Shown one piece after another: positions 42,098 through 53,280 of a stretch of 64,000 nucleotides of DNA. The notes beneath the pieces are model-generated. The model saw only the letters and a program-made list of their open reading frames with translations. It did not search any database and was not told where the DNA came from. This DNA comes from an uncultured Verrucomicrobiota bacterium (GTDB lineage Bacteria; Verrucomicrobiota; Verrucomicrobiia; Opitutales; Intestinicryptomonadaceae). The DNA lies in NCBI GenBank assembly GCA_949283955.1, contig CASDUP010000008.1, positions 1 to 64,000 on the forward strand, read 5' to 3'. A program made the position numbers and the translations under genes. The first letter of the stretch is position 1; each line of letters starts with the position of its first letter.

Positions 42098-42469
42098 ATG
42101 AATTGTCAAAACTTTACTGCGGAAGATGAACAGGCTCTCAGAGAATCACTTAAACGCTGCTCGCCCGAAACCATAGAAAAGGCCGTCGAGTACAGAAAGA
42201 CGGGAAATGTCGATCTGCTCGGTGACGTGGTTATCGGTATAATAAGCCGATTCGTCGAATCCGATATGCGGGGCAAACTCGTCAATGCTCCGGACTCCAT
42301 GGTTCTCGTCGACGAACTCGGATTGGACTCCCTGACTATGGTGGAAATAGTGCTCTCCGTCGAAGACGCCCTCGGAACGAAGATAGAAAACGACGAAATC
42401 CAGTCGCTTCGCACTCTCGGGGACATAAAGGGGTTCATTAGAAACAAGGCCCAGGAGGGTTCGAAATAG
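42098..42469 (+). CDS. Acyl carrier protein with N-terminal extension
   Basis: A 123-aa phosphopantetheine carrier. The attachment Ser is in DELGLDSLTMVEIVLSVEDAL and the usual acidic helix follows. The ACP core begins near residue 45; before it lies an extension (AEDEQALRESLKRCSPETIEKAVEYRKTG) longer than typical 80-aa ACPs. Start uncertain: ATG 42098 has GGAGG almost touching it, and ATG 42080 adds six residues. Upstream of, and possibly cotranscribed with, the Gld-like ABC genes. Confidence 0.85.
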   Translation: MNCQNFTAEDEQALRESLKRCSPETIEKAVEYRKTGNVDLLGDVVIGIISRFVESDMRGKLVNAPDSMVLVDELGLDSLTMVEIVLSVEDALGTKIENDEIQSLRTLGDIKGFIRNKAQEGSK

Positions 42470-42554
42470 CTCTCGAGCGGCGGGAATGAAGAAGCATTCC
42501 GAAACTTTACAAATTTTTTAAACGGCGTTTGTCGTTTGAAACCCGAAAGGCAAG

Positions 42555-43655
42555 ATGTCCGAAACTCCGGAAAATCCAAACACTGTAATAGTCAGAAGAC
42601 TCACGAAAATCTACGGCGGAATAAAGGTTGTGGACAACGTGTCGTTTCGCATAGGCAAGGGGGAGATACTTGGCTTTTTGGGTCCCAACGGAGCGGGCAA
42701 GAGCACAACCATGAAAATTCTTTCGGGAATGTGTCCCGCAACTTCCGGAAGCGCGTACGTTTGCGGGGTGAGCGTCGCGAACAATCCGGGAGAAGTCAGG
42801 CGGCACATAGGATACATGCCCGAAAACAATCCCCTGCCCGAGGATTTGAGGGTGAGCGAATATCTCCGATACCGCGCCGGATTGAAAGAGGTTCCGGTTC
42901 GGGAGACCTCCAGAAGGGTTGAGGAGGCCATGGAAATATGCCAGCTCAACCGCAAGGCCAAGCGCAAGATAATAGGCAATTTGTCCAAAGGTTTTAGGCA
43001 GAGGGTTGGTATAGCCGACGCTATCCTTTCAAAGCCGGACCTGATAATTATGGACGAGCCGACCATAGGTTTGGATCCGCATCAAATAATAGCCATAAGA
43101 AGCTTGATAAACTCCCTGAGGGGGAAGATGAGCGTGATAATCAGCTCGCACATACTTCCGGAAATCGAACTCGTTTGCGACAGGGTGATAATAATAAACC
43201 AGGGAAGAATAGTAGCGAGCGGCTCGTCGGAGAGCCTCAGAAAGGAATTCATATCGTCCGACAAGTACGGGGTCGGAGTGAAATGCCCTCCGGAGGAATT
43301 CGGGAAATACTGCTCGGTAATGGGAAACGGCCTGAGAATTTCCTCCCACTCCAAGTCGGCGGATGCCGACGGGTATTGGGACTACGTTCTCGAATCGGAC
43401 ATAGGCAGCGATCTTGGCCGATCGCTTATAGGGGAGCTGTCGAAAGACACCAGGCTTGCGGTTCGCGAGGTGTCCAGGTTGAAGCCCAATCTGGAGGAGA
43501 TTTTTATGGCGGCCACCCGCAGAAGCTGGGAGGAGGTTCGCGGAGTGAAGGATAAGGGTGCGGATCTCGAGGTCGACGATCTGAGAAAAAGAAGGGACGT
43601 CAGATTCGCTCCGAGCTCCGACGACGCATCTTCAACCGAGGAGGGCGGAAAATGA
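42555..43655 (+). CDS. GldA-like ABC transporter ATPase
   Basis: A 366-aa ATPase of the ABC-2 type. Walker A GPNGAGKST, Q-loop region GYMPENNPLPEDL, signature LSKGFRQRVG, Walker B LIIMDEPTIGLDP, and H-loop SSHILPE. About 60 extra residues at the C-terminus are charged. GldA relatives act with GldF and GldG, which follow here. Start overlaps nothing upstream; its stop overlaps the next start (ATGA). Confidence 0.9.
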   Translation: MSETPENPNTVIVRRLTKIYGGIKVVDNVSFRIGKGEILGFLGPNGAGKSTTMKILSGMCPATSGSAYVCGVSVANNPGEVRRHIGYMPENNPLPEDLRVSEYLRYRAGLKEVPVRETSRRVEEAMEICQLNRKAKRKIIGNLSKGFRQRVGIADAILSKPDLIIMDEPTIGLDPHQIIAIRSLINSLRGKMSVIISSHILPEIELVCDRVIIINQGRIVASGSSESLRKEFISSDKYGVGVKCPPEEFGKYCSVMGNGLRISSHSKSADADGYWDYVLESDIGSDLGRSLIGELSKDTRLAVREVSRLKPNLEEIFMAATRRSWEEVRGVKDKGADLEVDDLRKRRDVRFAPSSDDASSTEEGGK

Positions 43656-44419
43656 GAGGTTTCAAAACTCTTTTGAGCTGGCAGTTGCATTCGCTTTTCG
43701 TGTCGGCTTCGACGTATTTTACTATATTTTTGTTCCTAGTTTTGACGGGGGCGTTTTATCTGCTGGCTCTGATAGACGTCAGCAAGGCTCCGTCGGAAAT
43801 CTCGCCCACGGCGAGCTTTTTGAGCGTGTTTTGGTTCCCGGTTTTGTTCATGGTTCCTCTCATAACCATGAGAAGCCTTGCCGAAGAGAGAAGGCAGGGA
43901 ACTTTGGGCGCGATGATGACAACCCATGTTTCGGCTTGGCAGGTGGTGTTGGCGAAATTTTTTGCCGCGTATTTTCTCTATGTATTCATGTGGCTTCTGA
44001 CGCTTTCGTTTCCGCTGGTGACGGCGTGGACTTTGCCGGGTGCAACTTCCGACAGCAAGCTGTTTTCCATTCCCGAGATAGTGAGCGGATACGGTTTCGT
44101 GTTTTTGAGCGGAACGACGTACATAGCGATAGGAATATTCGCAAGTTCTCTTACCCGCACCACTCTCGTGGCGGGAATGTTGTCCACGGGAATGCTGTTT
44201 TTTGCGATAGCAGGCGCGGCTCTTATAGCGAAAATTCCGGTTACGGGAAATTGGTATGTGGATTGGATAGCGGCTCACGGGGGCTATTTGCAGACGTTTA
44301 GGCAGCTGGAGGAGTTTAGGTCGGCCCTTCTGGACACGAGGCCCCTCTTCCTATATCTGAGCGCCACGGCGGTTATAATCTCGGTCACTTCGCTAATTAC
44401 GGAGGCGAAAAAATCATGA
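43652..44419 (+). CDS. GldF-like ABC-2 permease
   Basis: A 255-aa membrane protein with about six helices (for example 18-40, 55-75, 100-130, 145-170, 180-200, 230-250). FWFPVLFMVPLITMRSLAEERRQGT is the ABC-2 permease hallmark. It overlaps both neighbours by 4 bases. Confidence 0.88.
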   Translation: MRGFKTLLSWQLHSLFVSASTYFTIFLFLVLTGAFYLLALIDVSKAPSEISPTASFLSVFWFPVLFMVPLITMRSLAEERRQGTLGAMMTTHVSAWQVVLAKFFAAYFLYVFMWLLTLSFPLVTAWTLPGATSDSKLFSIPEIVSGYGFVFLSGTTYIAIGIFASSLTRTTLVAGMLSTGMLFFAIAGAALIAKIPVTGNWYVDWIAAHGGYLQTFRQLEEFRSALLDTRPLFLYLSATAVIISVTSLITEAKKS

Positions 44420-45903
44420 ACGCTTACGACGATTTTAAAATTGCGGAGAGGTTGAGAAAGTTCAACTTGTGGGCGCAGATACTACTCGGAACTTTGTTCG
44501 TTGCGGGATTGAATTATGTTGCGGCGAGGCACTATGTGAAGTGGGACGCCTCGGCGGGAATGGGCAATTCGCTGTCTCCGGAGAGCGCGGCGTACGTGAG
44601 GTCGCTGAATGCCCCGGTTGAGATTTTTGTGGTGATATCGAAAGGCGTGGGATATTCCAAGGCGGACAAAATAGAGAGGGATTTGCGCTCGCTTATGGAG
44701 AGGTACGTCTATGCCTCTTCGAGCAACAAGGCGGGGAAAATATCCGTTACGTTTGTAAATCCCCAGATAGAGACGAAGGCCGCGCAGGGGCTTGTCGAGA
44801 GGTTTGGCAACGACATAGAGGACATGGTGATAGTTGCTTCCGGAAACAACCACAAAAAAATTCCGATAGGAGATTTTTACGAAGAGTCCGGGGACGGCCA
44901 AACGAGGGTATTTAAGGGGGAGCAGATGGTGAGTTCGTCGCTTCTCAATGTTTCCAGCGGCAAGGTAAACAAGATATACTTCCTAAAGGGTCACGGTGAG
45001 ATGTCCTTCAGGGCGTCAGATCCGATGAGGGGCTTGTCGGAGTTGGCGGGTAGGCTGGAGTCTAGGAACTACGAGCTTGCGGAGCTGGACTTAAGTTTGA
45101 CGAAGAGGGTTCCGGAGGATGCCGGACTTCTTGTGATAGCGTCGCCCCAGCTTGAAATTCTGCCGAGGGAGATAGAGGCAATACGCAAGTATCTTCTGAA
45201 GGACAATGGAAATGTGGCAATATTTCTCGGAATGGGATCTCTGTGCGGATTGGAGGAAATTTTGTTCGAGTGGGGAATGAGGGCCGACGACATGCTGATT
45301 TTGGACAACAGCGGGGACTACGAGAGTTCGTCGGGGGACTTGATAGTAAGGACATTTCCCGAGAGGGCCCACGACATAGTCAGATATTTCATATCAAGCG
45401 GAGCCGCGCTCCAGTTTGGATCTACCCGTCCCGTCAGGGAGGACCTGGGAGCCCCGATGGACGAAAACTTGAAATTGGCCCCGCTCTTTTTCAGCGCCCG
45501 CGGAACGAGTTGGGCTGAGAAATCCTACCAGAAGGCGGGGGTTCAAAAGTACGACAACGACTCCGATCTTCCCGGTCCCGTTCCGCTCGGAATGGCAGCC
45601 ACCCGCGCGGCAGGTTCGGATTTGGGAGTGAACATTCCTGGGGGAAAGCTCGTGGTATTCGGGGACGACAATTTTATCGCCAACCGATGGTTCGAGCGGC
45701 TGGGCAACTCTAAGCTTGCCCTGAACACTGTTGGGTGGATGTTCGACGAGGACAACGTGCTGAACATTCCTCCGAGGTCTCTCAAAACATATAGCCTTAC
45801 CCTGAGCGTAAACGACACAAGCAAGCTCGCTCTTCGCTTCATGATTCTTCCATCGCTCGTGCTTCTGTTCGGAATCGCGGCGTATTTCGTGCGAAAAAAT
45901 TGA
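44416..45903 (+). CDS. GldG-like ABC transporter auxiliary protein
   Basis: A 495-aa protein anchored at both ends (helices about 19-37 and 474-491) with a large extracytoplasmic domain. The N-terminal region (NYVAARHYVKWDASAG) and FLKGHGEMSFRAS match GldG/ABC_transp_aux proteins. In Bacteroidetes GldG belongs to a gliding/secretion-linked ABC complex; in Verrucomicrobiota its role is unknown. Overlaps the permease gene. Confidence 0.87.
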   Translation: MNAYDDFKIAERLRKFNLWAQILLGTLFVAGLNYVAARHYVKWDASAGMGNSLSPESAAYVRSLNAPVEIFVVISKGVGYSKADKIERDLRSLMERYVYASSSNKAGKISVTFVNPQIETKAAQGLVERFGNDIEDMVIVASGNNHKKIPIGDFYEESGDGQTRVFKGEQMVSSSLLNVSSGKVNKIYFLKGHGEMSFRASDPMRGLSELAGRLESRNYELAELDLSLTKRVPEDAGLLVIASPQLEILPREIEAIRKYLLKDNGNVAIFLGMGSLCGLEEILFEWGMRADDMLILDNSGDYESSSGDLIVRTFPERAHDIVRYFISSGAALQFGSTRPVREDLGAPMDENLKLAPLFFSARGTSWAEKSYQKAGVQKYDNDSDLPGPVPLGMAATRAAGSDLGVNIPGGKLVVFGDDNFIANRWFERLGNSKLALNTVGWMFDEDNVLNIPPRSLKTYSLTLSVNDTSKLALRFMILPSLVLLFGIAAYFVRKN

Positions 45904-45915
45904 CATAGGAACAAG

Positions 45916-47835
45916 ATGCGGTTCAGATTTACAATTATCCTGTTGGTGGCGAACATAGCGCTTTTTCTCGCGATCTGGAGATTGGAGTCGGGAGGAGGGG
46001 GCTCTAACGTTTCGGCGGCGTCTGGCATAGACATATCCAAGCTTGTCATAGAGGGAAAGAACATAGCTTCTCCGCGGGTTGTGGAGCGCAAAAACAACAA
46101 ATGGAAAATAACCTCTCCTCTCGATTGGCCGGCGAATTCGTTTTCCGTCAACAGGATTCGGAACCAGCTTGAGTTTCTCGACAAAGAGACGAGTTTTCCC
46201 GTCTCCGAAATTTCCAGATACGGAAACACTCTTTCCGACTACGGGCTCGATTCTCCCTCCTTTACAATCAAGTACGGGAACGGAAAGACAATGCGCACTT
46301 TGAAGATAGGTTCCAACGCTCCCGTGGGCGGTAGAATCTACATGCTGGACGAGGACGGAGGGAGAATATTTGTAGTCGACAGGCAGTTTGCGGACAATTT
46401 TGCGGTTGATATGGACCATTTGAGGGACCAGTCGGTATTTTCCGTATCCAACTTTGAAATAACCGCTTTTTCCGTCATGATTCCCAGGGAATCCGGTTCG
46501 AGGGAGGGAATAAAGAGGCTTGGTCTTCGCAAGGACGGAGGAGTGTGGAAAATGGAAACTCCGGTGGTTGCCGCGGCGGACCAAAGGGAGGTCGACAATT
46601 TTCTGAACAATCTATGCTCCATTCAGGCGAAGAGCTTTTCTGTTCCCGCCTCGGCTAGAACGGGATTTGAAAAGTCGGCGCTTTCCGCCTCGATAACGCT
46701 CGAGGGAACAAATAGGAGGGACGAGCTCAAACTGGGAAATTTTACGGACGACGGTTCCAGAATCTACGCCAAACTGGAGGGTAATCCGACCGTGTTTACT
46801 TTGGATTCGTCCATGTTCAAAAATTTGGGTTCTCTCCAGACTGCCCTAAGAGACAAGGCTTTTGCGGGAGTGGATCCCGACACTACTACAGGGTTGGATA
46901 TTTCCGTAGATGGAAGGACGATAAAGCTCCGCAAGCTCAGGGGTGAACTTGGGGTGGGCGGAATATGGGACGTGGTGGAGGCTCTTCCCGACGGAAAGAT
47001 AGCAACGGCCATGGCGGATATGGGCGTGGTGCAGGACTTGCTTCGAAGGTTTCAAAATGTAAGGGCTAGGGATTTTGTCTCGAGCGCTCCAACCCCGGAG
47101 GAATTGAAAAAATTCGGCCTGACCGGAAAGGATACCGTGAGAATAACCGACATACAGTCGGATAAAAACTCGAGAACTCTCGCGATAGGCGACCAGTATG
47201 CCTACGGCGGGGCTACATTGCGCTACGCCATGATAGAAGGGGAGCCGCACGTGTATGGAATTTCGGAAGAGCTGCCTTCCGCTTTGAGTTCGGATTTTCT
47301 CCATTACAGGTCGAAGCGCTTGGAGATGTTCTCGGAGAAGATAAAAGTTCTATCGGTGAAAATATCGGACGCGGAGACGGGAGAGACTATATTTGAAGCG
47401 TCGTCCGATTCGGGGAATTGGAATTCGGAGTACGAGAAGCTTCCCGCTCGCAAGGCGGCGGCGCTGAAGGAGCTGGTGGCCGGATTGAAGGCTTTTAACG
47501 TAAAGGATTATGTCCGCCAGTCGTTTTCGAAGGACGGGGTCAAGATATCCGACGTCGAAAACGAAAAGTGGAGATACAAGCTTTCCGCGGTTTTCGGGGA
47601 AACCGGGAACGGGAAGTCTCCGGTGGAAGAAAGGACTCTATACTTTTCGAAAAGATTGGGAGGTGGAATGCAGTACGGCGGATCCGAACGGGCGGGGGCG
47701 ACGTTCGTTCCGACCCGGTCTTTTATAAACGCGTTTAGCGAGCTTACGATCGAAATAAAAGCTCCGAGCGAGACGAACCATCGGTCGCCCGAACCTCCGT
47801 CTTTGGAGGTTCCGCAAAAAGCACCCGAAAAGTGA
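45916..47835 (+). CDS. DUF4340-domain protein
   Basis: A 639-aa protein with one N-terminal membrane helix (about 4-20) and repeats of a beta-rich unit (NNKWKITSPLDWPANSFSVN, GLDSPSFTIKYGNGKTMRTLKIG, and again near 380-410) typical of DUF4340. It follows GldG in many Verrucomicrobiota and Planctomycetes; its task is unknown. C-terminal tail rich in Pro. Twelve bases after GldG. Confidence 0.87.
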   Translation: MRFRFTIILLVANIALFLAIWRLESGGGGSNVSAASGIDISKLVIEGKNIASPRVVERKNNKWKITSPLDWPANSFSVNRIRNQLEFLDKETSFPVSEISRYGNTLSDYGLDSPSFTIKYGNGKTMRTLKIGSNAPVGGRIYMLDEDGGRIFVVDRQFADNFAVDMDHLRDQSVFSVSNFEITAFSVMIPRESGSREGIKRLGLRKDGGVWKMETPVVAAADQREVDNFLNNLCSIQAKSFSVPASARTGFEKSALSASITLEGTNRRDELKLGNFTDDGSRIYAKLEGNPTVFTLDSSMFKNLGSLQTALRDKAFAGVDPDTTTGLDISVDGRTIKLRKLRGELGVGGIWDVVEALPDGKIATAMADMGVVQDLLRRFQNVRARDFVSSAPTPEELKKFGLTGKDTVRITDIQSDKNSRTLAIGDQYAYGGATLRYAMIEGEPHVYGISEELPSALSSDFLHYRSKRLEMFSEKIKVLSVKISDAETGETIFEASSDSGNWNSEYEKLPARKAAALKELVAGLKAFNVKDYVRQSFSKDGVKISDVENEKWRYKLSAVFGETGNGKSPVEERTLYFSKRLGGGMQYGGSERAGATFVPTRSFINAFSELTIEIKAPSETNHRSPEPPSLEVPQKAPEK

Positions 47836-50669
47836 GCGGCAACCATAAAAGAAGCCTCTTGACGTTTGCGCTGAACATGTTTTGGCGTTCGCTCTACCCG
47901 TTCAATTTTTTTTTGGGAGCGGTTTTTATTTTTCTGGCGTGCGTTTATTGCGCCCTAAGATTTGCGGGGGAGTTTTCGCTTCCGGAATCGCTGAGGGAGA
48001 GAATAGAGGAGGAGGCGGCGGAGATGGGCCTGGCGCTTTCTTTCGACAAGTCCTTCGTGGGAATATCGGGATACTTCTACGCCAGCGACGTAAGGTTGCG
48101 CTTGGCCGGCACTCCAAACGACGTGTTCAGGGCGCAAAAAATGAAGGTCAATTTTTTGTGGACGGATTTGCTCTCCGGAAAATTTTCGATTTCCTCCGTC
48201 GAGGTGTTCGACGGGAGCGTGGCTCCAAGCTACGGGGATTTCGACACTGAGCCTGTGGTAAGCAGGCTGAACATGCGCATAAGAAAGTCTGGAGCAAAGT
48301 GGAGGGTGGATTTTCTGGATTTCAAGATAGACTCTCTGTACGTGTGGGCGAGGGGAACGGTAAGGGAAAATTTTTCCCCGGACAAGATGGCGGCAAAATG
48401 CGGTTTCGGGGATTTTATGCCTGCCAGCGAAAGCTCGGGTAAAAAAGAAGAGAAGCCGGTGGCGGCAATAGGAAAAAACATAGACTCTTTTTTCGCGTTT
48501 TTCGACAAGAACAAAAATCTGCTCGACGTGTTTGCAGACCCGATGGCGGAAGTGTCCTTCGATCTCGAAGAGGACGAGGGCTTTGCGGAGGTGGTGATAG
48601 GTTCGCCCTACGCCGGATACGAACTGTCTAAAGATAAGTTGGGGGAAAATTCTTCGGTGAGGGCATCGGGGATACGCGCAAAACTGCTGTTGGAATCGGG
48701 ATCCAAGTCGAGTTCGGCTAAATATTCCGTTTTTGCCGGGAAGGTGTTTTGCGGAAAGGATTTTTCCGCGGAGGGATTTTCGGTCGACGGCGAGATAGTT
48801 CCGCAGAGCGGAAGGCTGGCTTTGAAAAACTTCGAGGCAGTTTGCGCCACTTTCGTTTACGACGGTATAGAGTTTAAAAATTTGAGCGTCCGCAACGACT
48901 GGCTCGACGAAAAAAATTATAAAGAAGGCTGGATAGTTTGCGCCGGCACTGGCGGAAAAACTCTTGCGGCGCAGGTCGACGTGAAGGAGGACGGCAGAGC
49001 AGACATTGTAGCGGAGGGTGGGGTGAGCCCCGAGTACATACTTTCGGCGGGGGCTCTCGCGAAGATAGAGGAGATGAGGGATTTTTCCTTTCCTAGCGGA
49101 ATTTTTTTGGAGCTCAAAGCAAGCTTAAATCTGTCGAAGTTTGCCGTTAGAGCGGAGGGTTCCTTCGATACCGGTTCGGCGGTAATCTACAGAATGCCGG
49201 TTAAATTCGCGCGCGGAGAGTTTTCATACGACACCTCCACAAATATTTTCGACGCGCGCAATCTCGACGTAAAAAGCGAGGAGGGTTGGAGGGTGAAAGG
49301 AGGATTCAAGCAGTCTTTCAACGACAACAGGTATTTTATAAACGTCGCCGGTGACATACGCCCAATGGCCATAGCGCATTTTATGGAGCATTGGTGGGCG
49401 AAAGTTTTTTCCTCCGTGAAATTCGAGGGCGAAAAGAATTTCGGAGAGGCGGACGCCTTCGTGGAAGGGGTTTGGGGAAAGCCAGAAAATATATGGGCGT
49501 TTGTAGGAGTGAAGGGAAAAAATGCCTCTTACAACGGATCTTTTTTCGACAATTTTTCGCTCAAGGTGTGGATTAATCCCGAGAGGATAACTTTGTTTGA
49601 CGTAAATTTGAGCAGGGAATCCAGAACGGCCCATGCGGTTTTGGAATGGCTTTACGGAAGTTCCGGACTGACGCAATACGAGAGGCAGTCGATTTTTTTG
49701 GAGTCGAATCTGAATACCTCCGAATTGGCGTCGCTCGGGGGGAGGGAGGCGGAGGATGTGCTTGAAGTGGTGCGCTTCAGCGAAGCCCCCCGGCTTACTT
49801 TGAACGCGGTTTTGTACAATCCTTCGAACAATCCCATTCGCAGAAGGGACGTTTTTAACGCCGAAATTTTCGCGGGAGGCGAGACGCAGATAGAGAACTT
49901 TGCCAAAGTTATGAATATGCGCTGCGAAGCCCGGAGCGACGGAGTGGCTACCCAAATAACAAATGCAAGCTTCGGATTTTGCGATGGAAACGGAGAGGGC
50001 GGAGTGAGGGTGGAAAAGATGGATAAGGGAAGGATTTGGTTCGACGCGGACATGAGGTTCGACTCGATGAACCAGGGGGAGTTTGTAAAATTTTTGTGCT
50101 CTCTAGATCCTTCGGTGGAGGGCGACTCCGACAATAAGGAGGCGTCGTGGAAGATAGAAATGGAGAATGGGGAAGTGGATCTTTCCGCAAAGCTGAGGGG
50201 TTTTACGGACGACGGAGCGAGCATTTCGGGAGGGGGCTATGTTTCGTTGGACAACGCGGAGTTAATGAGGCTAAATCTTTTCGGGGCGCTGTCGAGGGCT
50301 CTTTCCGCGCTGAAGCTTCCTCTCGGAAGCTTCGACTTGACCTATATGAAGTCGCCCTTCGAGATGGAAGGGGGGGTGGTTAAGTTCCCCCAGCTTGAGA
50401 TAGGCGGCGACGTGATGAGAATTAAGGGAGGGGCGGCGTACAACTTCTTGAAAGACGATTTGACGGCGGCATTTTTCGTGTCTCCGTTCGGGGGGATTTC
50501 GAAGGGGCTGGTCGGAAAGTTTGTGTCGGCCATAAACCCGATAACAAACATAGTGGAAGTCGAGATAAAAGGCACTTTGGACGATCCTGACGTCTCCATA
50601 AAAATGGATCCGTCGCACATGTTAAAGAGCGACAAAAAAATAATAAACGGAATAAGGGAGGCGTTTTAA
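47832..50669 (+). CDS. AsmA-like large membrane protein
   Basis: A 945-aa protein with one N-terminal helix (about 20-42) and a very long beta-rich extracytoplasmic region. The end (KGTLDDPDVSIKMDPSHMLK after LVGKFVSAINPITNIVEVEI) and the layered repeats fit AsmA/DUF3971-type proteins, thought to bridge or move lipids between membranes. GTG start, overlapping the DUF4340 stop. Last-but-one gene of the cluster. Confidence 0.78.
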   Translation: MSGNHKRSLLTFALNMFWRSLYPFNFFLGAVFIFLACVYCALRFAGEFSLPESLRERIEEEAAEMGLALSFDKSFVGISGYFYASDVRLRLAGTPNDVFRAQKMKVNFLWTDLLSGKFSISSVEVFDGSVAPSYGDFDTEPVVSRLNMRIRKSGAKWRVDFLDFKIDSLYVWARGTVRENFSPDKMAAKCGFGDFMPASESSGKKEEKPVAAIGKNIDSFFAFFDKNKNLLDVFADPMAEVSFDLEEDEGFAEVVIGSPYAGYELSKDKLGENSSVRASGIRAKLLLESGSKSSSAKYSVFAGKVFCGKDFSAEGFSVDGEIVPQSGRLALKNFEAVCATFVYDGIEFKNLSVRNDWLDEKNYKEGWIVCAGTGGKTLAAQVDVKEDGRADIVAEGGVSPEYILSAGALAKIEEMRDFSFPSGIFLELKASLNLSKFAVRAEGSFDTGSAVIYRMPVKFARGEFSYDTSTNIFDARNLDVKSEEGWRVKGGFKQSFNDNRYFINVAGDIRPMAIAHFMEHWWAKVFSSVKFEGEKNFGEADAFVEGVWGKPENIWAFVGVKGKNASYNGSFFDNFSLKVWINPERITLFDVNLSRESRTAHAVLEWLYGSSGLTQYERQSIFLESNLNTSELASLGGREAEDVLEVVRFSEAPRLTLNAVLYNPSNNPIRRRDVFNAEIFAGGETQIENFAKVMNMRCEARSDGVATQITNASFGFCDGNGEGGVRVEKMDKGRIWFDADMRFDSMNQGEFVKFLCSLDPSVEGDSDNKEASWKIEMENGEVDLSAKLRGFTDDGASISGGGYVSLDNAELMRLNLFGALSRALSALKLPLGSFDLTYMKSPFEMEGGVVKFPQLEIGGDVMRIKGGAAYNFLKDDLTAAFFVSPFGGISKGLVGKFVSAINPITNIVEVEIKGTLDDPDVSIKMDPSHMLKSDKKIINGIREAF

Positions 50670-50693
50670 GGAGGTCCGCACAGGAGGATTGAA

Positions 50694-51434
50694 TTGAAAG
50701 GCTCGGGAAAAACAGGCCGCGGCAAATCCTCGAAGTTTTGGGCGAAATTTCGAGCGGCGCTTGTTTGCGTTTTTGCCGTGTGGCTGCTGTGGTATTTTTC
50801 CCCGAGATATTCCGGAGAGTATTCGAGGAGAACTTCGGAGGAAATAGAATATTTAAATTCGCTCAGGCAAAAATACTCCGGAAAAAATAGGGAATTGTCC
50901 GCTTCTTCAGTAATGTCGGCCATCAGCGCGGCGTGCTCCTTTTTAGACGGAGTTGAGGACAACGATTCGGAATACGGAAGCGCGGCGGCTCGGGCCTTGC
51001 TGTTCGGTACGGCGTACGTGGAAAGCGGTTTTTTCCCGCGCTTTCAGGATTCCGGGGGAGACGCGATAGGGTTGTTTCAGATAGAGTACGGAACTTTTCG
51101 CGACTTGTGGAGCAGGGGAATAAAGACCAACCACCCGAAAATTTGGGAGGCGATAAAACTCCGATACGGAACGAACGGAAAAATAACCTTCGAAGATTTG
51201 CAGACAAACGACGTTCTGTGCGCGATATTTGCCAGAATGAAATACGCTTCGCTCAAAATGCCAATACCTCCGGCCTCGGACTTGAACGCCCAGGCGGAAT
51301 ACTATAAGGAGTTTTACAATACCCACAGGGGAAAAGGTTCTGTCGAAGGTTATGTGAGGAAAGTTTCCGATTTGCTCGATGACCTAAAGGGAGAGATCTC
51401 GTGGGGATACGACGCGGAGAAGGCGAAAAAATGA
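50694..51434 (+). CDS. Membrane-anchored lysozyme-fold protein
   Basis: A 246-aa protein with one N-terminal helix (about 20-36). The domain around 95-215 resembles lytic transglycosylases/lysozymes: a candidate catalytic Glu at 110 in YVESGFF, then GLFQIEYGTFRDLW, which resembles the G-x-x-Q-I/E motif of goose-type and phage cell-wall hydrolases. Peptidoglycan cleavage is inferred, not certain. TTG start at 50694 is well supported by CAGGAGGA. It follows the AsmA-like gene by 24 bases. Confidence 0.65.
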   Translation: MKGSGKTGRGKSSKFWAKFRAALVCVFAVWLLWYFSPRYSGEYSRRTSEEIEYLNSLRQKYSGKNRELSASSVMSAISAACSFLDGVEDNDSEYGSAAARALLFGTAYVESGFFPRFQDSGGDAIGLFQIEYGTFRDLWSRGIKTNHPKIWEAIKLRYGTNGKITFEDLQTNDVLCAIFARMKYASLKMPIPPASDLNAQAEYYKEFYNTHRGKGSVEGYVRKVSDLLDDLKGEISWGYDAEKAKK

Positions 51435-51496: not shown

Positions 51497-51527
51497 TTGA
51501 CAAAGTTTGGGGTTTGGGAGAACATAT
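51497..51527 (+). promoter_or_regulatory. Promoter candidate for the scaffold/GGGtGRT pair
   Basis: A perfect TTGACA (51497-51502) lies 61 bases before the scaffold gene. The -10 is poor (ACATAT at 51522-51527, 19-base spacer). Confidence 0.45.
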
Positions 51528-51562
51528 CCGTTCGATTTTTACAACGCATAAAGGAACAAAAC

Positions 51563-52267
51563 ATGGCCTGTAAAATAAGTTATTCAAACGAGGTTCAGAG
51601 AATGTGTCCCGTCGCCAAGGGCGCCAGGCACGATCCCGCCCCGATTCCCGAGGAGGGAAAATGGGTTAAATCCAAAGAGATAAAAGATGTAAGCGGCCTT
51701 ACACACGGGGTGGGCTGGTGCGCTCCGCAACAGGGAGCTTGCAAGCTTACTTTGAATGTGAAGGACGGAGTGATAGAGGAGGCTCTCGTGGAGACTCTCG
51801 GATGTTCCGGAATGACCCATTCCGCGGCAATGGCAGCGGAGATTCTTCCCGGAAAGACTATACTTGAGGCTCTCAACTCCGATTTGGTTTGCGACGCGAT
51901 AAACGTGGCAATGAGAGAACTTTTCCTCCAGATAGTTTACGGGCGCTCGCAGACGGCTTTCTCGGAGAACGGCCTTCCCGTTGGAGCCGGGCTCGAGGAT
52001 CTCGGAAAGGGCCTTCGCTCGCAGGTTGGCACGATGTTCTCCACAAAGGAGAAGGGAGTCCGCTACCTCGAAATGGCCGAAGGATACATTCTCGAAGAGG
52101 GCCTGGACGCCAACAATGAAACTTGCGGATACAAGTTCGTCCATCTTGGAAAAATGATGGAGGCGATTCGCAAGGGAATGGACCCGAAAGAGGCGTTTGA
52201 AAAGTTTACCGGAACCTACGGCAGATTTGCAGAGGCCGTGAAGAAAATCGATCCGCGCAAAGAATAA
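51563..52267 (+). CDS. NifU-like iron-sulfur scaffold protein
   Basis: A 234-aa protein related to the NifU/IscU N-terminal scaffold fold: LTLNVKDGVIEEALVETLGCSGMTHSAAMAAEILPGKTILEAL. Cysteines at 53, 60, 81 and 110 are candidate cluster ligands (Cys81 equals the middle NifU cysteine). The C-terminal 100 residues are additional to the scaffold. Start ATG 51563 with AAAGGA; the longer frame is a shadow. The next gene follows in 14 bases, with which it is nearly always paired in anaerobes. Confidence 0.85.
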   Translation: MACKISYSNEVQRMCPVAKGARHDPAPIPEEGKWVKSKEIKDVSGLTHGVGWCAPQQGACKLTLNVKDGVIEEALVETLGCSGMTHSAAMAAEILPGKTILEALNSDLVCDAINVAMRELFLQIVYGRSQTAFSENGLPVGAGLEDLGKGLRSQVGTMFSTKEKGVRYLEMAEGYILEEGLDANNETCGYKFVHLGKMMEAIRKGMDPKEAFEKFTGTYGRFAEAVKKIDPRKE

Positions 52268-52281
52268 GGAGGACGTCAGTC

Positions 52282-53280
52282 ATGGCTAATTTTGAAGGAT
52301 ACGAAAGGCGCATAGCAAAAATCGAAAAGTGCCTGAAGGAATACGGAATAGAATCTCTCGACGCCGCCCGCCAGCTTTGCTTGGACAAGGGAGTCGACGT
52401 GGAGAAGATAGTAAAGGGGATACAGCCCATAGCGTTTGAGAACGCGGTGTGGGCGTACACTCTCGGAGCTGCCGTTGCGTTCAAAAAGAACAGCAAGAGC
52501 GCGGCGGAGGCAGCCGAAAATATCGGTATAGGATTGCAGGCGTTCTGCATTCCCGGATCCGTGGCGGACAGCCGCGAGGTTGGAATAGGGCACGGAAATC
52601 TGGGTGCCATGCTTCTTCGCGAGGAGACTAAGTGCTTCTGCTTCCTGGCCGGGCACGAGAGTTTTGCTGCCGCCGAAGGTGCGATAGGAATAGCTCGCAC
52701 AGCCAACAAGGTTCGCAAGGAGCCGCTCAGGGTTATTCTCAACGGGCTTGGAAAAGACGCGGCGTACATCATTTCCCGCATAAACGGATTTACGAGCGTC
52801 GAGACCGAATACGACTATTACACTGGGGAGCTGAAGGTAGTAAAGGAAACCCCCTTCTCCGACGGCGAAAAGGCCAAAGTGAAGGTTTACGGAGCAGACG
52901 ACGTATCCGAAGGCGTGGCGATAATGATACACGAGGGAGTCGACGTTTCCATTACCGGCAATTCCACGAATCCCACCCGCTTCCAGCATCCCGTTGCCGG
53001 AACGTACAAGAAGTGGGCCACCGAGCATGGTAAGAAGTATTTCTCAGTCGCTTCGGGCGGAGGAACCGGAAGGACTCTCCACCCCGACAACATGGCTGCC
53101 GGTCCCGCCTCCTACGGAATGACCGACACGATGGGCAGAATGCACGGTGACGCACAGTTTGCGGGTTCCTCCTCTGTTCCTGCGCACGTCGAGATGATGG
53201 GCCTTATCGGAATGGGGAACAATCCCATGGTGGGAGCTACCGTTGCAGTGGCTGTTGCCGTTGAGGAGGCTTCCAAATAG
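52282..53280 (+). CDS. GGGtGRT protein
   Basis: A 332-aa protein of the GGGtGRT family, named for the motif ASGGGTGRTLHPDN near residue 260. Other features: GSVADSREVGIGHGNLGAM, FLAGHESFAAAEGA, and a Gly-rich end (MMGLIGMGNNPMVGATVAVAV). No signal peptide. The biochemical role is unknown. AAGGAGGA lies before the ATG. Cotranscribed with the NifU-like gene. Confidence 0.9.
   Translation: MANFEGYERRIAKIEKCLKEYGIESLDAARQLCLDKGVDVEKIVKGIQPIAFENAVWAYTLGAAVAFKKNSKSAAEAAENIGIGLQAFCIPGSVADSREVGIGHGNLGAMLLREETKCFCFLAGHESFAAAEGAIGIARTANKVRKEPLRVILNGLGKDAAYIISRINGFTSVETEYDYYTGELKVVKETPFSDGEKAKVKVYGADDVSEGVAIMIHEGVDVSITGNSTNPTRFQHPVAGTYKKWATEHGKKYFSVASGGGTGRTLHPDNMAAGPASYGMTDTMGRMHGDAQFAGSSSVPAHVEMMGLIGMGNNPMVGATVAVAVAVEEASK

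Follow-up and report, generated by a model that had tools for sequence, protein, structure and literature searches.

The locus lies in a window of 64,000 nucleotides, by which we mean the whole stretch of DNA that was analysed, and comes from a 1.65 Mb genome in 58 contigs that is 91% complete; among named genomes, Opitutales MAGs are its nearest relatives. The ORF listing gives an acyl carrier protein (ACP) gene on the plus strand and then six co-directional genes, five of which are marked below as core:

42098..42469 (alternative start 42080), plus strand, acyl carrier protein-like (Pfam PP-binding, E=6.6e-8)
42555..43655, plus strand, GldA-like ABC ATPase, core (Pfam ABC_tran, 2.2e-29)
43652..44419, plus strand, GldF-like ABC-2 permease, core (Pfam ABC2_membrane_3, 1e-10)
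44416..45903, plus strand, GldG-like ABC auxiliary protein, core (Pfam ABC_transp_aux, 8.6e-17, and DUF7088, 1.8e-7)
45916..47835, plus strand, DUF4340 protein, core (Pfam DUF4340, 3.4e-53, in three stretches)
47832..50669 (GTG start), plus strand, YhdP-type AsmA-like protein of 945 aa, core (relatives and hhalign to YhdP)
50694..51434 (TTG start), plus strand, membrane-anchored lysozyme-fold protein (sub-threshold SLT)

The gaps from the ACP gene to the lysozyme-fold gene are, in order, 85, -4, -4, +12, -4 and +24 bases. The original prediction had described a run of GldA/F/G-like, DUF4340, AsmA-like and lysozyme-fold genes with an ACP just ahead, and all of these are present and co-directional. 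Pfam agrees with its identities for the ABC parts, the ACP and the DUF4340 protein. The evidence for the other two identities is thinner than the prediction implied: no Pfam family matches the AsmA-like protein itself, which was placed via its relatives, and Pfam SLT scored the lysozyme-fold protein at 15.8 bits against a cut-off of 21.3 (E=0.01).

The ATPase motifs and the ABC-2 permease domain together mark the first three core proteins as an ABC-2 type exporter. The GldA-like protein has a Walker A motif GPNGAGKST at 43, the signature LSKGFRQR at 143 (LSKGYRQR in F. johnsoniae GldA) and LIIMDEPT at 163. The GldF-like permease has several hydrophobic segments, and the GldG-like protein ends in a transmembrane helix at 469-494. 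For all three subunits the top NCBIfam match is the gliding protein, with 278.5 bits for GldA (cut-off 402.6), 95.4 for GldF (cut-off 288.5) and 42.7 for GldG (cut-off 389.85). Because these scores fall below the curated cut-offs, a gliding function should not be implied by the names. The set also differs from Bacteroidota GldAFG, which the accessible part of one paper ties to gliding and GldJ/GldK stability (PMC9127263), in having DUF4340 and AsmA-like partners. At two loci GldF and GldG are fused into one 750-aa protein (L125:6847-9099 and L204:6714-8966). These were the only fusions among ORFs of at least 200 aa at 186 loci, with no DUF4340-AsmA or GldG-AsmA fusion. In a sequence search of solved structures, the GldG profile matched IFT52 at 5.1e-8.

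The DUF4340 protein is modelled with an N-terminal transmembrane helix and four alpha/beta units (AF2, pLDDT 91.3), and the four repeats are homologous to one another (hhalign probability 95.9-99.5). Against the PDB this model had no match at E<=0.001, and the best VIA Z was 8.2, covering one repeat. Neither the DUF4340 profile nor the AsmA profile gave anything useful when compared with the sequences of solved structures.

We assign the AsmA-like protein to the YhdP type of the AsmA-like superfamily on profile alignment and a predicted fold. In the family profile comparison with hhalign, its residues 666-922 align with E. coli YhdP 979-1254 (probability 92, E=6.6e-7), while the probabilities were 2.8 for TamB, 0.2 for YdbH and 0.2 for the TamA control. 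Pfam YhdP is matched by 28 of 54 family members and Pfam AsmA by 5 of the 54; there is also a weak NCBIfam match here to the GspN profile TIGR04411 (7.8e-5). The AF2 model (pLDDT 85, pTM 0.62) has a single predicted N-terminal membrane helix at 6-45 and then 48 strands that form a long antiparallel beta-groove, a layout that, like the C-terminal alignment, resembles E. coli YhdP. Hydrophobic alternation over 40 predicted strands was 2.35, as compared with 1.57 (SD 0.19) for shuffled sequences, and none of 1000 shuffles was as high. Foldseek returned weak global matches to LptD (E=1.7e-5, TM ~0.12) and ApoB100, and solved structures reached a VIA Z of at most 9.1 with an rmsd of 22.4. The protein is shorter than E. 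coli YhdP (945 aa versus 1266 aa), and it is encoded with an ABC exporter, whereas E. coli yhdP is not and has tldD and rng as neighbours.

We searched the relatives with one protein as the query for each of the AsmA-like and lysozyme-fold proteins, and rechecked absences in reduced genomes with a profile. The AsmA-like protein was matched in 47 of 54 relatives. Within up to 20 kb of sequence around each of 47 such loci, window included, DUF4340 adjoins AsmA at 41. Three of the six exceptions are on short contigs (L042, L049, L064), and the other three (L051, L071 and L072, from G029, G033 and G030) have GldG elsewhere in the genome. Counting these last three, we found split genes with AsmA still in the genome in G029, G030, G033, G339, G340 and G342. 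One genome of the same genus, G010, is 95% complete and returned zero candidates in seven genome searches; it is perhaps unsearchable rather than gene-less.

A sample of 288 genomes from the phylum had AsmA matches in 232 and GldG matches in 231 (E<=0.001). The two counted as linked when AsmA came after GldG, no more than 6 kb away and in the same orientation. Among the matches listed, 113 genomes have clear ones for both proteins, and 84 of these have the two linked in this way. Within the order this was 40 of 43 genomes, counted by eye from the listed matches, and outside it 44 of 70 genomes among the matches listed, from 19 families, with 26 of the 70 unlinked. The out-of-order set has AsmA E-values below ~1e-20 and comprises 84 rows from 82 genomes among the matches listed; twelve of the 82 had no GldG row among those matches and are outside the 70. 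Gene order and strand are constant across the 19 families. Scanning named genomes with GldG as the anchor yielded 80 loci. Of these, 63 had 3.5 kb or more of downstream sequence, and AsmA was found there in 56; Kiritimatiellae, Pontiellaceae and one Lentisphaerae MAG are among the linked cases. The five-gene module is solid: the conserved unit is gldA-gldF-gldG-DUF4340-asmA (42555-50669), and its conservation rules out chance as the reason for the arrangement.

The genes on either side of this unit fared differently. Matches to the lysozyme-fold protein were found in 10 of 54 relatives, all from one family, the window's own (f1), and only in the window is the gene beside AsmA, 24 bases after it. 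In seven of the other nine genomes it is on a different contig from AsmA; in G001 the two genes are 342 kb apart, and in G018 AsmA was unmatched. We conclude that the lysozyme-fold gene stands beside AsmA by chance, and it was rejected as a machine part. ACP clusters were found upstream of gldA on the same strand at 9 loci, all from the window's family, and the ACP profile had no match in 40 loci from outside that family, which rules the ACP out as a general part. The original prediction had proposed checking how often the six genes stay together, and had made conservation of both the AsmA-like and lysozyme-fold genes with the Gld part the test of its idea. The core passes with AsmA included, and the lysozyme-fold gene drops out. 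Since that gene is not conserved with AsmA, the proposed role for a wall-cleaving enzyme in opening a gap in the wall falls with it. A full seven-gene machine, which would include a dedicated ACP and a wall-cleaving enzyme that opens peptidoglycan, could draw on the contiguous and co-directional genes of the window and on the SLT-like Glu in the AYVESGF motif of the membrane-anchored protein. It is largely refuted by the lack of conservation of both outer genes, and we regard it as very improbable.

The other neighbours vary with the lineage. In the genus, AsmA is usually followed by a UDP-GlcNAc 3-dehydrogenase-like gene (below cut-off) and LpxB (183 bits against a 190 cut-off); at L033:11127-13249, for example, the dehydrogenase-like gene adjoins lpxB after AsmA. 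This neighbourhood may point to a diamino-type lipid A. The pair is missing at the spot taken by the window's lysozyme-fold gene. Elsewhere in the order, accB and accC often come after AsmA, with birA and coaX upstream. The recurrent neighbours that serve acyl-lipid synthesis are accB-accC, birA, coaX, LpxB and the ACP. As possible parts, we set aside accB-accC, birA and nadC (Opitutales) and PrmA and a DegP-like protease (other classes) as ordinary neighbours. A 1320-aa gene after AsmA in Opitutaceae, considered as an outer-membrane partner, is actually a hybrid histidine kinase; many Opitutaceae carry this kinase immediately after AsmA (L146:8555-12526 and similar).

The ABC part also occurs on its own. 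In the named scan, loci from a Deltaproteobacteria genome (L191), an Acidobacteria genome (L195) and Aminicenantes genomes (L198, L201, L203, L206) have GldAFG with no AsmA, plus DUF4340 if the contig extends far enough. This cassette has the same gene order, gldA-gldF-gldG-DUF4340, and differs in that no AsmA adjoins and in that its DUF4340 protein is ~456 aa, without repeat four, instead of ~640 aa. Across the phylum to which the Aminicenantes genome G335 belongs, GldG was found in 87 of 119 genomes. The AsmA profile matched none of the 20 GldG neighbourhoods fetched from Acidobacteriota-type genomes, and the 20 genomes themselves gave at most weak AsmA matches (best 1.8e-12, in G405). With a 54-row AsmA profile, AsmA was absent while GldG was present in the reduced Opitutales G024, G042, G046 and G051 (GldG weak in the last, 1.5e-14); the same profile did find AsmA in G029, G030, G033 and G043. 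The strongest evidence against a joint machine is that other phyla and reduced Opitutales have GldAFG-DUF4340 with no AsmA; the pump therefore has a function of its own, and AsmA may have been grafted onto it in Verrucomicrobiota.

The loci L202, L251, L252 and L253 are from reduced Opitutales of ~0.9 Mb that keep GldG and a shortened DUF4340, with AsmA unmatched.

The fourth repeat of DUF4340 tracks the presence of AsmA, in a pattern we consider suggestive. We used the reach of the full-length DUF4340 profile as the criterion for repeat four, collapsed duplicates of one locus, and left out copies cut at the end of a fetched stretch. Repeat four was found at 107 of 107 distinct linked Verrucomicrobiota loci, at 16 of 20 AsmA-unlinked Verrucomicrobiota loci (absent from the other four) and at both of two loci without room for judging AsmA linkage. 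It was found at none of three AsmA-less reduced Opitutales and in none of 22 copies from outside Verrucomicrobiota (0/18 Acidobacteriota-type and 0/4 others), where the profile match ends short of it. The median DUF4340 length is 456 aa in Acidobacteriota-type genomes versus 640 aa. A profile of the C-terminal region only did not separate the groups, with 13 of 19 Acidobacteriota-type copies still scoring, because the repeats are homologous to each other, and this is why the reach of the full-length profile was used instead. The pattern is no proof, since Verrucomicrobiota sequences, mostly from AsmA-linked loci, went into the profile and genome reduction shortens proteins; related genomes are also not independent of each other.

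The same observations bear on a rival reading, that the operon holds two independent modules: GldAFG-DUF4340 would be free-standing and the YhdP-like protein would work alone as in E. coli, with the shared operon explained by a need for both in fixed amounts during envelope growth. The AsmA-free cassettes and the unlinked genomes outside the order fit this, and the accessible part of PMC12977461 names DedD, which is not an ABC protein, as the partner of E. coli YhdP. Repeat four following AsmA, including in three AsmA-less lineages inside an AsmA-bearing order, and the constant order and strand across 19 families argue against it. We consider independent modules possible but doubtful.

We also looked for other lipid-transport systems. 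A TamB match turned up in one of 19 genomes, and nowhere in the window's genus, the window genome (G000) included; LptF/G was found in 18 of 19 and MlaD-type MCE in 17 of 19. The LptF/G matches of G000 are on contigs 10 and 21, whereas the window is on contig 8, and its single MCE protein is also elsewhere. Within the cluster there is no MCE domain and no LptF/LptG-type permease, the GldF-like protein matching ABC2_membrane. With TamB unmatched and LptF/G and MCE separate, the AsmA-like protein of the five-gene unit is the genus's only AsmA/TamB-type bridge that these models find. The cluster would share with Mla/MCE and TamAB the proposed task, lipid traffic between membranes, and differs from them in these components. 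In the Lpt system (LptB2FGC-A-DE), an ABC transporter is coupled to a periplasmic beta-groove. We use Lpt as a working analogy for this combination and claim no sequence homology to it here.

Our preferred reading is that the five genes encode an ATP-powered, YhdP-like intermembrane lipid transporter, and we give it roughly an even chance, with its substrate, coupling and direction being what we infer. An inner-membrane ABC exporter would feed or power a periplasm-spanning YhdP-like protein that moves lipids, most likely phospholipids, toward the outer membrane. ATP hydrolysis by GldA would drive the GldF permease with GldG as its partner subunit, a complex suggested by the ATPase motifs, the family assignment and the GldF-GldG fusions that are seen. 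Given its ABC-2 fold and its AsmA partner, the permease would then insert lipid into the outer leaflet of the inner membrane or extract it from there. GldG and the four-repeat DUF4340 protein may form a periplasmic adaptor in which repeat four docks the AsmA-like protein, as their correlated presence suggests. The predicted groove could finally let acyl chains travel along its hydrophobic face to the outer membrane, with transport and its direction both presumed. In favour of this reading we count the linkage, repeat four, the YhdP homology and the groove, the lack of TamB matches beside separate LptF/G and MCE, the acyl-lipid neighbours and the essential DUF4340 domain described below; against it stand the AsmA-free cassettes, the unlinked genomes outside the order, the four unlinked Verrucomicrobiota loci that lack repeat four and the weak Foldseek matches. 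A more specific version is that this is a dedicated ATP-driven phospholipid exporter, whose ABC-2 pump loads the YhdP-type bridge via DUF4340 and whose repeat four evolved as the AsmA dock; we hold this one only tentatively. The trans-envelope machine of the original prediction, perhaps for lipid, survives in part: the YhdP homology and the predicted groove favour it, and the enzyme for the wall gap is lost.

Glycans and lipids are common substrates of export by ABC-2 permeases. The cargo of a trans-envelope exporter could then be another amphiphile (a glycolipid, a hopanoid-like lipid, a lipid-linked glycan or a lipoprotein), with the AsmA-like groove as its conduit. Besides this export habit, the dehydrogenase-like and LpxB genes after AsmA in the genus would suit such a cargo, as would the weak match to GspN, a T2SS part which is reported in lipoprotein transport in the accessible part of PMC12802150. 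The separate LptF/G pair means that LPS export is already served, and no conserved glycan gene adjoins the core across the loci compared, so we think this reading unlikely.

The preferred transporter reading would bear on a question already raised for AsmA-like proteins. The accessible part of a 2024 study (PMC10900882) states that no energy-dependent extractor has been identified for their phospholipid loading, considers LptBFG and LolCDE unlikely in that role and allows that flux driven by synthesis might serve instead. A conserved operon of an ABC exporter and a YhdP-type protein makes the ATP need of AsmA-like loading directly testable. If the reading is true, the ABC-2 pump would supply the energised entry step that has been proposed for AsmA-like lipid transport and is so far missing, and the conserved ABC-YhdP-like linkage in Verrucomicrobiota points to a possible power source for intermembrane lipid transport. 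The phylum has a transposon essentiality map, and the accessible part of that work lists a DUF4340 domain, from a gene that may or may not belong to this operon, as essential in Verrucomicrobium spinosum (PMC12283558). DUF4340, rarely named in the literature searched, gains a concrete hypothesis. Our literature searches, with most subscription papers outside their reach, found no published description of the operon; in the literature searched, this five-gene envelope system is an undescribed, new combination of known parts.

Further along the window, at 51497-53280, there is a NifU-like protein (NifU_N, 5.2e-4) and then a 332-aa protein without an NCBIfam match, a pair that presumably resembles the Fe-S associated GGGtGRT pair.
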